Source of the DNA: a virus
Virus record (IMG/VR): IMGVR_UViG_3300042924_000189
Coordinates: 1 to 23,804 of that record
Strand: one strand, 5' to 3'
DNA: 23,804 bases
The position numbers were made by a program, and so were the translations under genes. The notes under the pieces were generated by a model. The model ran no database searches and was not told where the DNA came from. It saw only the letters and a program-made list of their open reading frames with translations. Shown here one piece after another: positions 3,947 through 15,767 of this stretch (position 1 is the first letter of the stretch; every line of letters starts with the position of its first letter).

Positions 3947-6027
3947 TATCTGTTTACCTCTGAAGGCTGTTGCTGTGTTCCTGAATACGCGCCTAATGGA
4001 CCAGCCAAACTAGATTGCGGTAAACGCTGCCCTACAGTAGAAAGAGCTTCAATCGTTTGCTGTGCTGGAGAAATCATTCTTCCAACCGCTGCCGCCTCTG
4101 CTCGTTCCAATCTTAATGCCTGAACTAAGTCAGCAAACTGACCAACAACCGGCAATTTAGATAGCATTGACCTTTCAAGCCTGTCGATTGCCTGGGCGCT
4201 TGGACCTCTTCCTAACGCAGTGCCGCGCACAGGTTCGCGCAATTCTGCAAGTCTAACCATGTTATTCAAAAACGTATATTCTTCAGGAGCAAAGATTATT
4301 TTAAGTTTATCCTCGCCGATACGTTTCAAAGCTCTTTCTATTCCAGCCCTAGATAATGCTTTATTACCAAACTCATCTAATGGGCCGTTCATCGCAGTGC
4401 CTTTGATCCAATCAAGCGTATCAGCTCTTAGTCCAGCCCATGCTCCTAGCCCTTGATCTGCCTGCTCTGGAACAGAGCTAACCAAAAACTTCTTCAAATG
4501 ATTTACATCAGTAGATGCCCAAGATTTTCCTAGTACCACTTGGTCAAACACATTTTCAGGCTTTATGTCGTTTTCCATAATTGACTGAACAAGGCTTCGT
4601 TTGGTTTGATCAAACTTGCTTACTCGCTCAGGCATCAAAGCCCTGCCAAACTCTGTACGCAGCCGCCTAGCCTCTGCAAACGCATCCCTGCCAGCAATGC
4701 TAATAACGTCATCATCTAAAGAGTCTTTAAGCTCACGGATGACTTGCCTTCCCAATGGAGAAGTTGAATCGTATCTTTGATTTATAACCTGCCGTATAGT
4801 TTCAGCAGTATCAACATCAACAAGGCCGCGCACTTTGAAGTTATTGTCAATAACGCCACGCTCTGCAAGGTCGCCACGCAAAGAACGAATTAATCCACCT
4901 GTAAGCTCGTTGTCTGGCGCACGCCTTCTTAAGGCTTCAGCGTATCTATTAAGCCTGATATTCTGCTCATTGCCTATGGTTTGCCTAGTCGTATTGTACA
5001 GCCGGTTTATTTCGTTATCCAAAATAACTGCACGATTTACAACAGCATCAGAGATTGGCGATCCACTTGTGACACCGCCAGCGCCCCTGATGCGAGTATC
5101 AAATGCACTAGATATAACACCCTCTTGCTGTTCAATCGCAGCCCTAGCTGGTCCAGACCTTTTAATAAGTTCTTGCTGAAGCTGAAAATCATCAGCAGAC
5201 CTAGTTACTTGCGCCGTTGTTGGCTCTATGCCCATTTCACGCATAAAGTTAAACCGCTGCGCCTGCTCTTGAGTTAGCACACCAGTCCTTTGCAGCGCCG
5301 TTGTTTGCTCTGCCGCCTCTCTTGCAAAGTCATCAGCAGATGTTCCGCTTGCTCTTAACAATCTTATAGCGTCTTGCGTTAAAGTGCCGTCATTATTAAC
5401 TAGGCGTATACCAGTGTCTCGACCAACCACCTTAGCGACCAAAGGAGAAACAACGCGAAAAGCCAATCTAGCAGCCGCATCACCAGCCATTGCAAACATC
5501 GGGGTGGTAGCAAGCCTGTCCCATTGAACATCATCGCCAGTAGCACCTCTTGCCGCCTGTGTTATGGACTCCTGCGCCAACCCTGTTGCGCCCTGAGCCA
5601 GCAATTGCGCCCCATAGCGCAAAGGAGCAGTAATCGCACCTGTAGCAATGTATGGCGCAGCCTCTTGAGCCATGCGCTCAGTGCCTCTAATAACCTGCGA
5701 AACATCTGCTCCCGAAAGACCTGGGCGGTTTAAGTAAAACGTCCCACGATTCGTTTGAATTATAGGATTTCCACGCCTGTCAGCCGAAATAGAAGCATTA
5801 GGGTCACCCATTTGACGCTCAGTGCGTAAAGCCATCTCTGGGTCAGAGCCGCCAGGATATTCGCGGTAGTCTTCTCGCTCAGGACTAATGGCCTGTTTAA
5901 ATCTCTGCACTATGCTGGGTTTATTTTGCAGTTCTTGAAAAGCCTCTGACACTATTTTAAATTCATCAGTGCCTTGCTTGTCTTGGTTGTCAATAAGCCA
6001 TTCTGCAAACTTTTCTAGGTCAGACAT
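3946..6027 (-). CDS. Putative ejection / internal virion protein (largest of the set)
   Basis: This 693-aa protein is mostly helical by composition. The N-terminus has 'LEKFAEWLIDNQDKQGTDEF', an amphipathic segment of a kind seen at the start of many podoviral internal proteins. Residues 118-205 are rich in Ala and Gly and moderately hydrophobic (for example APYIATGAITAPLRYGAQLL), a possible membrane-inserting region. The remainder is charged and rich in Arg, Gln and Glu with coiled-coil character. No lysozyme or transglycosylase catalytic motif is evident. It is the third large gene after the neck genes and lies directly before the fibre. That position and size recall P22 gp16 (about 600 aa), which crosses the host envelope during DNA ejection. 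The equivalence is positional, not from sequence identity. Confidence 0.6.
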   Translation of the reverse strand: MSDLEKFAEWLIDNQDKQGTDEFKIVSEAFQELQNKPSIVQRFKQAISPEREDYREYPGGSDPEMALRTERQMGDPNASISADRRGNPIIQTNRGTFYLNRPGLSGADVSQVIRGTERMAQEAAPYIATGAITAPLRYGAQLLAQGATGLAQESITQAARGATGDDVQWDRLATTPMFAMAGDAAARLAFRVVSPLVAKVVGRDTGIRLVNNDGTLTQDAIRLLRASGTSADDFAREAAEQTTALQRTGVLTQEQAQRFNFMREMGIEPTTAQVTRSADDFQLQQELIKRSGPARAAIEQQEGVISSAFDTRIRGAGGVTSGSPISDAVVNRAVILDNEINRLYNTTRQTIGNEQNIRLNRYAEALRRRAPDNELTGGLIRSLRGDLAERGVIDNNFKVRGLVDVDTAETIRQVINQRYDSTSPLGRQVIRELKDSLDDDVISIAGRDAFAEARRLRTEFGRALMPERVSKFDQTKRSLVQSIMENDIKPENVFDQVVLGKSWASTDVNHLKKFLVSSVPEQADQGLGAWAGLRADTLDWIKGTAMNGPLDEFGNKALSRAGIERALKRIGEDKLKIIFAPEEYTFLNNMVRLAELREPVRGTALGRGPSAQAIDRLERSMLSKLPVVGQFADLVQALRLERAEAAAVGRMISPAQQTIEALSTVGQRLPQSSLAGPLGAYSGTQQQPSEVNR

Positions 6028-12722: not shown

Positions 12723-13197
12723 TTGTTGATACCTCTAGAGCAATCGAGCCATTAACTTCTGTAAGGATTGCCTGTTCGCTTTCGGGATAGAAGTGCAGAC
12801 CGTTACCGAACTGATTGTCCTCGTTGCCAGAGCCAACAGGCAAAGTATTGGGAAGCCGAGTCGGGATAATGATCTGACCGAGATGACGCATTGCCTGCAT
12901 ACCCTCACGCGCAGTTAGGGCAAGCTCAGGCGTTACAACACCCCCGTAGTACGGAACAGACTGGATTGCCATATTAGCAATGATGCCTGTCAGTGCGCCT
13001 GGAGGAACAGTAACCTCATCAGCAATATTGCTCACAGCAGTATACCCAAGGTTCACACCCTTGGCTGCAAGTGAGTTCATGTAATTGTTCATAGCAAAGA
13101 TAAAGTCCTGATACTCATCAGCCTCTAGCGGAGCCTCTGATGCCTGCACCAGAATCGATTGCAGTGATGCCTTAGCTACTTGAGCAACAGTCGCCAT
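12715..13197 (-). CDS. P22 gp4-like tail accessory factor (head completion protein)
   Basis: This 160-aa protein is close to P22 gp4 (166 aa). An N-terminal helical region (residues 5-45) is followed by 'NLGYTAVSNIADEVTVPPGA' and a helix 'ALTGIIANMAIQS'. The diagnostic C-terminal stretch is 'IPTRLPNTLPVGSGNE' (111-126) and 'HFYPESEQ' (135-142); P22 gp4 has a matching 'YPSRMPTGSGN' and 'WHYFPGEQ'. In P22, twelve copies of gp4 dock under the portal and start tail assembly. The stop overlaps the next gene start by eight bases (ATGATTGA). The upstream 49-aa gene ends two bases before this ATG. Confidence 0.85.
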   Translation of the reverse strand: MATVAQVAKASLQSILVQASEAPLEADEYQDFIFAMNNYMNSLAAKGVNLGYTAVSNIADEVTVPPGALTGIIANMAIQSVPYYGGVVTPELALTAREGMQAMRHLGQIIIPTRLPNTLPVGSGNEDNQFGNGLHFYPESEQAILTEVNGSIALEVSTND

Positions 13198-13199
13198 GA

Positions 13200-13349
13200 T
13201 TATTCAAACCTTGGTTTAGCAGTCTTAGCCGCTTGTTTAAATGCCTTCGCAGTGGGAGCGCCAGCAGTGCCAGGCTTACGCATCTTCTCTTTGGAGCCTT
13301 CTTTAATTCGTTTGCGCTTTGCTGCAATGTTTGCGTATAAGCCTTTCAT
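13200..13349 (-). CDS. Small basic protein (49 aa)
   Basis: ATG at 13349 is preceded by an AGAGGTG ribosome site. The product starts MKGLYANIAAKRKRIKEGSK and continues with KMRKPG, GAPTAKAF and a Lys/Ala-rich tail ending KPRFE. It is strongly basic, with no cysteine or membrane segment. Near-identical small proteins with 'MKGLYANI' and 'KMRKPG-GAPTA' are known from aquatic phage structural clusters by recall. Function is unknown; binding to nucleic acid or to an acidic virion surface is inferred only from charge. The gene is too short for many ORF callers but fits exactly between its neighbours, with a 1-base gap upstream and a 2-base gap downstream. Confidence 0.75.
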   Translation of the reverse strand: MKGLYANIAAKRKRIKEGSKEKMRKPGTAGAPTAKAFKQAAKTAKPRFE

Positions 13350-13350
13350 G

Positions 13351-13515
13351 TCACACCTCTGCTTTAGACTTAGGTCTGCCCTTCTTCTTTTCTGCTACTA
13401 CTTCAACTTGTTCTTCTTTTGGTTTCCAGCCCAGACTTGCAGCAACAGCATAGCTTGCGCTGTCTACCGTAACCTCTGTGCCGCTTGGTTTAATCCAGAT
13501 GCTTGTACTCACCAT
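13351..13515 (-). CDS. Small hypothetical protein with basic tail (54 aa)
   Basis: ATG at 13515 overlaps the stop of the upstream gene by seven bases (ATGGTGA). The N-terminal half (MVSTSIWIKPSGTEVTV then 'YAVAASLGW') looks like a small beta-alpha unit: a strand pair followed by an Ala-rich helix ending in LGW. This recurs in small phage proteins. The C-terminal half is highly charged (KPKEEQVEVV, AEKKKGRPKSKAEV) and contains a KKKGRPK segment similar to an AT-hook core. No function can be assigned. It is tightly packed with the genes on both sides, which supports expression as part of the late operon. Confidence 0.7.
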   Translation of the reverse strand: MVSTSIWIKPSGTEVTVDSASYAVAASLGWKPKEEQVEVVAEKKKGRPKSKAEV

Positions 13516-13802
13516 TTCTCCTTTGCAGCCCAGTAAGCCGCTGACATTTTGCCTTTGTCAATGTTAGCACGATGACGCGCCATGAAGGACTTTCTACGCG
13601 CTTTGTCTGCGTCAGATTCACCTTCTTTCTTTGGTGAACCGCTTACACCTTGTTGACCAAAGCGAACAAGTTTATAAGAGTCTCTTTCTTTAGCCATTAC
13701 AACGTGAGACTTTGTTGGGTGATCCGGCGTTTTCTTTGGTTTATTTACGCCAGAAATCCCTTCTTTTTCCATTTTATTTTTTACTTTTGCGGGAATAGCC
13801 AT
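13509..13802 (-). CDS. Small conserved phage protein (NKPK-TPDHPTKSHVV family), 97 aa
   Basis: The N-terminal segment 'NKPKKTPDHPTKSHVVMAKE' (20-39) is followed by 'KLVRFGQQGVSGSP', an acidic linker (KKEGESDADKARR) and a C-terminal 'RRKSFMARHRANIDKGKMSA' then 'YWAAKEKW'. The combination is recognised by recall from small proteins in aquatic phage structural clusters; its function is not known to me. The first part closely matches the N-terminus of the adjacent HNH endonuclease, indicating duplication or shuffling. The start at 13802 lies 22 bases inside the end of the HNH gene with only a weak GAGAG ribosome site, so translation may depend on coupling. An alternative ATG lies ten codons later. 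Confidence 0.75.
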   Translation of the reverse strand: MAIPAKVKNKMEKEGISGVNKPKKTPDHPTKSHVVMAKERDSYKLVRFGQQGVSGSPKKEGESDADKARRKSFMARHRANIDKGKMSAAYWAAKEKW

Positions 13803-14437
13803 TTGTACATTCTCTCGACATGTAATTTAAATTGGCTGAATTCAAGATTGCTTTTTGCTCTGTTGCAAGTTACGCAGCATGGCACACAGTTATCTACAGT
13901 ATAATCGCCATCAGAATCAAACCTATCAACACCACTAAACTTTATTTTATAGTCTTGCGGGTTAGCGTGTGGGCTGTCTAATTTTAATGATGGCGCATTT
14001 GACATGCAGTCCCAGTCTTTTGCCTCTGATCCGCAATAAAAACAAGGCTTAGCTGTTATCCTTGCAAACTCTTCGTAAGAAAGTTCCCACGCAAACCCTC
14101 TTTTTGCAGCACCGCTTTTGTATCCCTGCATTCTAGAGTTAATTGATCTTCTTTGCTTTCCTGTAAAGCCAGCTTCATCGGTTCCACATCCGCAGGTTTC
14201 TTGTCGAGAAATAGCAGAATATTTCCAAAAAACTTTTTCTTTTCCGCACTTGCATTGACATACCCAGATTCGGTTTTTCCCTACATATTCAGACCTAACA
14301 AGCTTAAATTCACCAATTGTGTCGCCTTCTTTGGCAACAACAACATGGGATTTGGTTGGATGGTCAGGAGTGCGCTTTGGCTTGTTGAAGCCTTCTACGC
14401 CAATTCTTTCTAATCGCGGGTCTTTAGCTTTTGGCAT
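13781..14437 (-). CDS. HNH homing endonuclease with zinc-binding N-terminal domain and a borrowed N-terminus
   Basis: This protein has 218 aa. Residues 12-40 ('GVEGFNKPKRTPDHPTKSHV') copy the start of the next gene. Residues 41-84 carry a Cys-rich domain (WVCQCKCGKE…ETCGCG; Cys60, 62, 64, 82, 84) of the type often found in front of phage HNH or AP2-type homing nucleases. The HNH core spans about 131-196: CFYCG (Cys132, Cys135), 'SGVDRFDSDGDYTVDN' and 'CVPCCVTCNRAK', with the metal-binding Cys pairs and the VDR…YTxDN…CNxAK signature intact. It sits between the coat and neck genes, a common site for phage homing nucleases. ATG at 14437 has GGGGTGA upstream. It appears functional: no frameshift, key residues present. 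Confidence 0.88.
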   Translation of the reverse strand: MPKAKDPRLERIGVEGFNKPKRTPDHPTKSHVVVAKEGDTIGEFKLVRSEYVGKNRIWVCQCKCGKEKVFWKYSAISRQETCGCGTDEAGFTGKQRRSINSRMQGYKSGAAKRGFAWELSYEEFARITAKPCFYCGSEAKDWDCMSNAPSLKLDSPHANPQDYKIKFSGVDRFDSDGDYTVDNCVPCCVTCNRAKSNLEFSQFKLHVERMYKWLFPQK

Positions 14438-14452
14438 GATTCACCCCAGATG

Positions 14453-14490
14453 ATAATGGTGACGCACCCCTGAAGATGCGCCACCATTAT
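14453..14490 (-). terminator. Strong hairpin after the coat gene (terminator or RNA-processing element)
   Basis: The 14-base arms ATAATGGTGGCGCA and TGCGTCACCATTAT (minus strand) pair fully with one G-U pair, around a 10-base loop (TCTTCAGGGG). It begins nine bases after the coat stop and ends 16 bases before the HNH start. The tract after the stem (CATCTGGGG) is not T-rich, so it is not a classic intrinsic terminator. It may be partial, or may stabilise or cleave the abundant coat mRNA. Confidence 0.65.
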
Positions 14491-14498
14491 ACCACTAC

Positions 14499-15767
14499 TT
14501 ACACACCGAAACCCTGCCCGGACATCAGCGGGTTGAAGCAGGCATACGCAGGCAGAAGGTCAAAACGAATCTTCTGGCTGTTAGCATCACCTGATGAGTA
14601 CTTGCTGATGCGTATGCTCATACCGTCAGAGGTAGTTGCAACAGTATCAGTCGAGTACAGTTTCGGCAGCTTAACAGTTCCCATGCCAAATGCTTGCTTG
14701 GCGTAGAACAGGTTAGGTTGGTACAGGGTTGCAGTGGCAGACACGATTGTAATCACCGCACCGCTTGCAGGAGCAGCAGTTACAGTGTTGTATTGACCAT
14801 TGGCCTCATAGATTGCAGGGCCAGCAACTACCAGTGTGCCTTCGCCTGATGCACCCAAAGTTACGTCAGCAGTCACAACACCAGTCCACGCAATGTTTGC
14901 GCCTGTTGCACTAACCATCGCTTGACGGGTAGAGCAGTTCAGACGGTTAACGTTAGCAATGGTTACCAGTTCACCAGCCTTCACAACCATGTTTGCTTGG
15001 AACGCAGTGACAGCCAGAGACTGGGTCATTGTGTCCTTTGCAGTAACATAGGTTGCGTCAGGAGCAGATGACAGAGTACCAGCACGATCTGCACCAGAGC
15101 TTGATGTGAAGCTCGCCATTGTGGTTGCGCTCAATGCTCGCAGGCCACCGAAGTTGGTGCTGATCTGGGCATTCTCCCACGCTGTACGAATCAGGCTATC
15201 AACAGAGTTGAGACCTGACTGTGCAGAGGCCAAGGCCGCTGTGGTGAACGGGTTCATCAGGTAGTAGCGGTCAGTGCTGGGATCAACGCCAATCGCGTCC
15301 AGAGTCGCACCAGCGCCCGCTACGTCAGACCACGCATCTACAGCAGTACCGTGAGTACCGTAGCGCAGTGAAGAGTTCTTCAGCATGAACGATGCAAAGT
15401 CCAGTTCAAGGTCAGTCACGATACGCCGAGCCATCGGAGCCAGGATGTCCTCAAGCTGGTCTAGTTGCAGAGCCTCTTCCACGTTGCCCCATTCGGTAGC
15501 AGCGGTGAAGTAGTTCTGTACAGTACCAGTTGCCTTACCAGCAATGATCTCGCTCTTGGTAGAGGAAGAGATGTCACCGCCAGCGGTACGGATGGTCTTG
15601 TAGTCATGGGGACGCTTGAAGTCCACAGTGCTACCAGATGACGGGTTGAACTTGTCAGCCAGAAGCTGAGTGTCAACAGTCTTTGTGATTACCCGTGAGT
15701 TCTCAAAAGCATCAAGGAACACACGGGCAACTTTACGGGTTACGTTACTGCTTAAATTATTAGCCAT
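14499..15767 (-). CDS. Major capsid protein, P22 coat-like (HK97 fold)
   Basis: This 422-aa protein is close to the P22 coat (430 aa). The N-terminal helix (ANNLSSNVTRKVARVFLDAF) and the following segment around 'GSTVDFKRPHDYKTI' match the P22-type coat family. 'NYFTAATEWGNVEEALQLDQ' fits the E-loop/spine region, and a beta-rich insertion (about 225-345) corresponds to the P22 I-domain. The conserved end 'IRFDLLPAYACFNPLMSGQG' is present. It forms the icosahedral shell after assembly on the scaffold, whose gene lies eight bases upstream. A strong AGGTGAGG ribosome site precedes the ATG, fitting the high synthesis a coat protein needs. A strong hairpin follows the stop. Confidence 0.9.
   Translation of the reverse strand: MANNLSSNVTRKVARVFLDAFENSRVITKTVDTQLLADKFNPSSGSTVDFKRPHDYKTIRTAGGDISSSTKSEIIAGKATGTVQNYFTAATEWGNVEEALQLDQLEDILAPMARRIVTDLELDFASFMLKNSSLRYGTHGTAVDAWSDVAGAGATLDAIGVDPSTDRYYLMNPFTTAALASAQSGLNSVDSLIRTAWENAQISTNFGGLRALSATTMASFTSSSGADRAGTLSSAPDATYVTAKDTMTQSLAVTAFQANMVVKAGELVTIANVNRLNCSTRQAMVSATGANIAWTGVVTADVTLGASGEGTLVVAGPAIYEANGQYNTVTAAPASGAVITIVSATATLYQPNLFYAKQAFGMGTVKLPKLYSTDTVATTSDGMSIRISKYSSGDANSQKIRFDLLPAYACFNPLMSGQGFGV

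Follow-up and report, generated by a model that had tools for sequence, protein, structure and literature searches.

How does an HNH endonuclease gene come to begin with a segment resembling the start of the gene that follows it? The question is raised by the window, the whole 23.8 kb stretch of phage DNA analysed here, which encodes a P22-type coat protein, a portal, a tail accessory factor and a large terminase. No phage in the collection searched has a coat protein with more than 55% identity to that of the window. The minus strand carries, in this order, the genes for the coat protein and the HNH protein, the small gene, a 54-aa ORF and the tail accessory gene. Our analysis makes it highly probable that a free-standing HNH endonuclease homed into coding DNA of the phrog_7595 family, without splicing, and carried with it a replacement for the 5' end of the gene that it entered.

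Organisation of the locus

The first-pass annotation had called the HNH gene (13781-14437, minus strand, 218 aa) and the small gene (13509-13802, minus strand, 97 aa), and both ORFs were confirmed. Upstream lies the coat protein gene (14499-15767, minus strand; Pfam PF11651, E 4e-66), which was used as the anchor for relatives with an empty site. The HNH core (13784-14314, minus strand) is composed of an N-terminal Cys-rich/beta domain and an HNH (endonuclease VII-like) domain, with a phrog_1035 match at E 1e-11. Matches to the HNH families phrog_1035, phrog_3118 and phrog_338 assign the protein to the HNH nucleases, the Pfam HNH match of the window protein lying below the cut-off. The small protein is a full-length match to phrog_7595 (residues 5-97, E 6e-39).

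The junction between the two genes is essentially unchanged across five other contigs, which come from five metagenomes: a 999-bp region is identical in three of them (L002-L004), and there are 0 mismatches in 957 bp in L001 and 1 mismatch in 462 bp in L005. Because it is near-identical in these five further contigs, the junction is not an assembly artefact. All five contigs of the window phage keep the segment that opens the HNH gene whole and in frame, in nearly identical copies.

A short basic protein (GLYANIAAKRKRIKEGSKEKMRKPG; 13172-13357 in the window) is encoded near phrog_7595 in the window, L006 and L007, and a similar one is present in L159, which suggests that it forms with phrog_7595 a conserved pair across several different phages. 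A phrog_7595 gene is also present in Roseophage SIO1 (L257, 1501-1716), where it is unannotated in the record.

The shared segment

Residues 3-41 of the HNH protein match the phrog_7595 profile (E 3e-10) and residues 8-48 match the neighbouring small protein (E about 3e-11), so the shared segment is not a chance resemblance. HNH residues 18-33 and small-protein residues 20-35 indeed differ at one position, as had been noticed from the sequence. The homology had also been thought to run on as far as a KLVR motif, but it stops at HNH residue 41 (EGDTI|GEF). The intact resident gene has KTIR at the KLVR position and the HNH relatives have TILR or FLRS; the KLVR common to the two window proteins is therefore a coincidence. 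The proposal that the break falls at a local similarity survives in part, since the end of homology lies near a GD-x-I stretch resembling the start of the HNH N-terminal domain, while its KLVR component has to be dropped.

We also looked for the segment as an ordinary part of HNH proteins in other contexts, and did not find it. Most of the best phage HNH matches start only beyond the segment; a few reach into it, and these were compared by annotation only. A normal place for the segment in HNH proteins was rejected on the basis of relatives that lack it.

Uninterrupted alleles and other inserts at the same site

Empty-site relatives were sought among IMG/VR contigs picked by their coat protein. 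In L029, whose coat protein is 99% identical, an uninterrupted phrog_7595 gene starts 75 nt after the coat gene. An intact gene starts 30-78 nt after the coat gene in L029 and in more than ten other contigs (L028, L012, L083, L086, L167 and L231 among them), and the relatives of the window phage have a single copy of the small gene. The uninterrupted gene that the first-pass annotation suggested searching for thus exists in related phages (L007, L028, L029 and others), and the insert is polymorphic, present or absent at one site. These alleles support the suggestion that the HNH gene was inserted in a copy of the small gene.

Other inserts occupy the interval between the coat gene and phrog_7595. 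An HNH gene unfused to phrog_7595 is found there in L171 (about 5264-5883), L186, L188 and L189; from their sequence alone we take these to be AP2-type, a third endonuclease type using this spot besides the window type and the GIY-YIG type described below. A tRNA-Trp (cca) lies in the same interval in L091 (2867-3212) and L181 (5599-5672).

A three-part mosaic

The first part of the mosaic is the N-terminus of the HNH protein, a 5' stub of 41 codons from the resident phrog_7595 gene (14315-14437, minus strand). It shares 121 of 123 bases (98% DNA identity) with the intact, uninterrupted allele of L007, with which it groups in the tree (support 99/85), and this identity ends abruptly after GGCGACACAATT. 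By comparison, the stub is 64% identical to the adjoining complete copy and 54-64% identical to the HNH-linked alleles, which are those following related HNH genes in L006, L158, L159 and L266. The leader between the coat gene and the HNH gene (14438-14498, minus strand) was likewise inherited from the resident gene, its last 31 bases agreeing with L007 at 30 positions. The idea that the HNH gene captured expression signals is supported in that its predicted start codon and leader are those of the resident gene.

The second part is the 5' half of the small gene (46 codons; 13665-13802, minus strand), whose start codon lies inside the HNH 3' end. This half is foreign and cassette-borne: it shows 67-73% DNA identity to the HNH-linked alleles and to HMO-2011-type alleles (those of roseophages CRP-1, CRP-9 and CRP-345) and only 55-63% to its own clade, and it groups with the former two sets with support of 100/100. 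The closest foreign 5' half found is only 73% identical, too distant to be the actual donor.

The third part is the resident 3' half (13509-13664, minus strand). From RFGQQG onward it is 97% identical in DNA to L028 and 95% to L086, an identity that restarts at CGCTTTGGTCAA and runs into the downstream genes, as opposed to 54-69% with the HNH-linked alleles; it groups with its own clade with support of 98/99. AU tests rejected three alternative groupings: the 5' half among the alleles of its own clade (p 7e-5), the stub together with the 5' half of the neighbour (p 0.004) and the 3' half among the HNH-linked alleles (p 0.024). The small gene at 13509-13802 is a chimera of a foreign 5' half and a resident 3' half, and the 'fusion protein' appearance of the HNH protein would be a junction scar.

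From the mosaic identities and the trees of both halves, the inserted stretch is bounded at about 13665-14314 (about 650 bp); of the resident gene it replaces about 9 bp only. The left flank is nearest to L007 (98%) and the right flank to L028 (97%); because no single allele is near both, later recombination must also have occurred. The first-pass annotation had judged the event old from codon differences. The two copies in the window are in fact only 64% identical (77 of 120 bases), but it does not follow that the event is 'not recent', because the intact allele of L007 shares 98% identity with the stub.

In L234, L174 and L009 the usual, conserved C-terminus AAFWAAKEKW has given way to AAWWSSTTKWGIILAFTN, so exchange affects the 3' end of the gene too.

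HNH relatives in other phages

The arrangement recurs in other phages. All HNH relatives with at least 50% identity, representing seven lineages, adjoin a gene of the phrog_7595 family; the identity over the HNH core is 65% in L006, 60% in L158, 56% in L159, 63% in L263 and L266, and 51% in L267/L268. The GVDR, N and CC..CNR.K residues are invariant in four HNH relatives. A profile of four HNH sequences matches the HNH enzyme PacI (E 1e-6), its sole sequence-level match in the PDB.

The HNH 3' end overlaps the start of the restored gene by 22 bp in the window (13781-13802, minus strand) and equally in L006, L158, L159 and L266; the overlap is 28 bp in L268, and a one-base gap separates the two genes in L263. 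The left side differs from case to case. L268 has a stub of about 44 resident codons that ends near the same position and is followed by a TAATG stop-start, the HNH gene and a distant phrog_7595 homologue; L006 has a short stub-like ORF that is out of frame; and the stub is absent in L158, L159 and L263. Judging from these junctions, the HNH element varies at its left end and hardly at all at its right.

The AlphaFold model of the HNH protein, built from four sequences only, has a mean pLDDT of 70. Its residues 1-32 are of low confidence and predicted disordered, in alignment columns that held one sequence only, and this is in keeping with a dispensable tail. A Foldseek search of the PDB with the predicted structure gave no usable fold match, and the bacterial and archaeal genome contigs searched contained no relative of the HNH protein.

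More distant HNH proteins, 33-36% identical and without the segment (L270-L281), are encoded in many phages directly upstream of a gene that we presume, from its sequence, to be phoH-like. The phoH-like gene may be a further one to which an endonuclease is dedicated.

The same architecture with a GIY-YIG enzyme

In L173 and L234/L246 the endonuclease is a GIY-YIG/NUMOD3 protein, with matches to the homing endonuclease family phrog_314 (E 3e-16) and to NUMOD3 (8e-6); it has MPKAKDPRLERVGVEGFNK at its start and continues with YKVYLHRR. The phrog_7595 gene after the ORF is complete and has an N-terminus of an unusual kind. The stub of L173/L234 matches the empty allele L012 and the 3' part matches L171. 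The arrangement is repeated in L247, which belongs to another phage; here the stub and the 3' part match the empty relatives of that phage itself (L051, L053, L057 and L062-L064), which are contiguous exactly at the point where L247 is interrupted. In L173/L234 and L247 the stub has 18-19 codons and the ORF overlaps the restored gene by 26 bp. The GIY-YIG insertion lies at another codon of phrog_7595 than the HNH insertion.

A wide search using the GIY-YIG alignment returned mostly generic GIY-YIG/NUMOD3 endonucleases that start at FYVYLHRR and have no phrog_7595 part. Because the generic relatives start at this motif, the stub is an addition, which in L173 and L247 ends there.

L091, which was mentioned above for its tRNA-Trp, has a stub MAKKDPRLERLGLDGFNKPNRT that breaks off in the codon region also affected in the GIY-YIG case, with an entire gene after it.

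A proposed homing route without splicing

We propose that the mobile unit would consist of the HNH gene and, overlapping with it, a 5' half of phrog_7595 of foreign origin. The HNH enzyme would cut an intact resident gene near codons 41-46, and repair would copy in both the HNH gene and the foreign 5' half. On the right side, the copy would rejoin the resident sequence at the conserved RFGQQG stretch and so rebuild a working gene; on the left side, it would be attached in frame, behind codon 41, to the 5' stub of the resident gene itself. Expression of the HNH gene would then depend on the leader and start codon of the resident, and the target gene would be restored as a chimera whose start lies within the 3' end of the HNH gene. 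Just left of the presumed cut site, the restored gene departs from the resident sequence, and by this change the foreign half may protect the element from its own enzyme. The argument for immunity is weakest in L159, because its restored gene has an IKTIR-like sequence (YKTIRFGQ).

Every stub matches the lineage of its recipient, which would put the left crossover within the stub or ahead of it. The stub may have been first joined to the HNH gene here, or it may already have been part of the element and been overwritten by recipient sequence during homing. In elements that own a stub, it could act as the left homology arm; elements without one may have been joined illegitimately.

The same architecture in one gene, built from two unrelated enzymes, suggests that this solution arises repeatedly. 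We give about even chances to the broader proposition that at least two unrelated phage endonuclease classes have converged on it, with a diverged 5' end that would restore the target and destroy the cut site and a recipient 5' end that would serve as homology arm, leader and start.

Alternative explanations

Four rival readings were considered. The position of two related segments side by side would agree with an internal duplication, as the first-pass annotation had envisaged, in which the phage carried tandem copies of the small gene and the HNH gene entered one of them; however, the relatives have a single copy, and the 64% identical segments fall into different, well-supported clades whose joint grouping was rejected (AU p = 0.004). 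Trees and identities thus speak against a duplication within this genome, and we regard this history as very improbable. A spliced element in the small gene, either a group I intron or an intein, is conceivable since homing endonucleases often reside in such elements. Yet a complete small gene with its own start follows the HNH gene, leaving nothing that needs splicing, and an Rfam search of the window and of the related loci tested gave no intron or other match. The HNH reading frame accordingly stands outside introns and inteins, and splicing can hardly explain the locus.

In the main rival reading, the stub was kept as a useful domain, for example for DNA targeting or virion association. 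Its intact reading frame in all five contigs of the window phage speaks for such a capture, as does the functional chimeric nuclease known in ICP1 (Gp88/Odn with a RepA domain; PMC8263062). As a general rule, nevertheless, the targeting domain put forward at first finds no place among relatives that lack the stub or have it out of frame or stopped (L006 and L268), the first 32 HNH residues are predicted disordered, and the two GIY-YIG cases retain a different length, 18-19 codons only; we consider domain capture improbable. Plain phage mosaicism, in which the HNH gene hitchhiked in a random recombination bounded in phrog_7595 and was not driven by the endonuclease, draws on the heavy recombination in the phages related to the window and on the AP2-type HNH genes and tRNA-Trp found at the same spot without fusion. 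Against it, seven HNH and two GIY-YIG lineages all lie at one gene and reuse the same codon positions, and this explanation is unlikely. We therefore retain homing with a carried replacement 5' end as the preferred reading.

Comparison with known systems

Introns and inteins allow homing enzymes to sit inside genes by splicing out. The locus described here would be another phage route into genes, namely to bring a replacement for the gene part that is displaced. For annotators, it means that stub-like 'domains' need not be functional, and the homing reading gives predictions that are directly testable by a cleavage assay. Our search of the open-access literature found no phage element that brings along a 5' end with which its target is restored.

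Homing endonucleases are described as clustering at essential phage genes and exchange boundaries (PMC10448857). The nuclease genes at recombination boundaries beside capsid genes are like the present one, and carriage of a replacement gene end is not among the passages of that source that were found. In T4-type phages, free-standing endonucleases split genes, as mobE does in nrdA of Aeh1 and mobA in T4 gene 60 (PMC2988022). These cases share with the window a free-standing endonuclease inside a coding sequence and the use of upstream expression of the host gene, but there the gene stays split into two working pieces, whereas in the window it is restored as one complete chimeric gene. Gp88 (Odn) of ICP1 is also a phage nuclease with an N-terminus from another gene; its captured part is a DNA-binding domain that directs the nuclease, while in the window type the captured part is, judging from the relatives, dispensable and variable (PMC8263062).

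The window is a mirror image of the mitochondrial mobile ORFs with replacement C-termini in Allomyces macrogynus atp6 and in Glomus sp. atp6, atp9, cox2 and nad3, which encode both LAGLIDADG and GIY-YIG enzymes (PMC3630166). As in the window, an endonuclease ORF that has entered a coding gene supplies one end of its target from a foreign source, and the leftover native part matches close relatives while the inserted part does not. The mitochondrial elements replace the 3' end and displace the native one, whereas in the window the foreign part that travels with the endonuclease is the 5' end, encoding the N-terminal half (PMC3630166). The window differs further in that it is a phage with an HNH enzyme and not an organelle, and in that the displaced native 5' end has become the N-terminus of the endonuclease itself.
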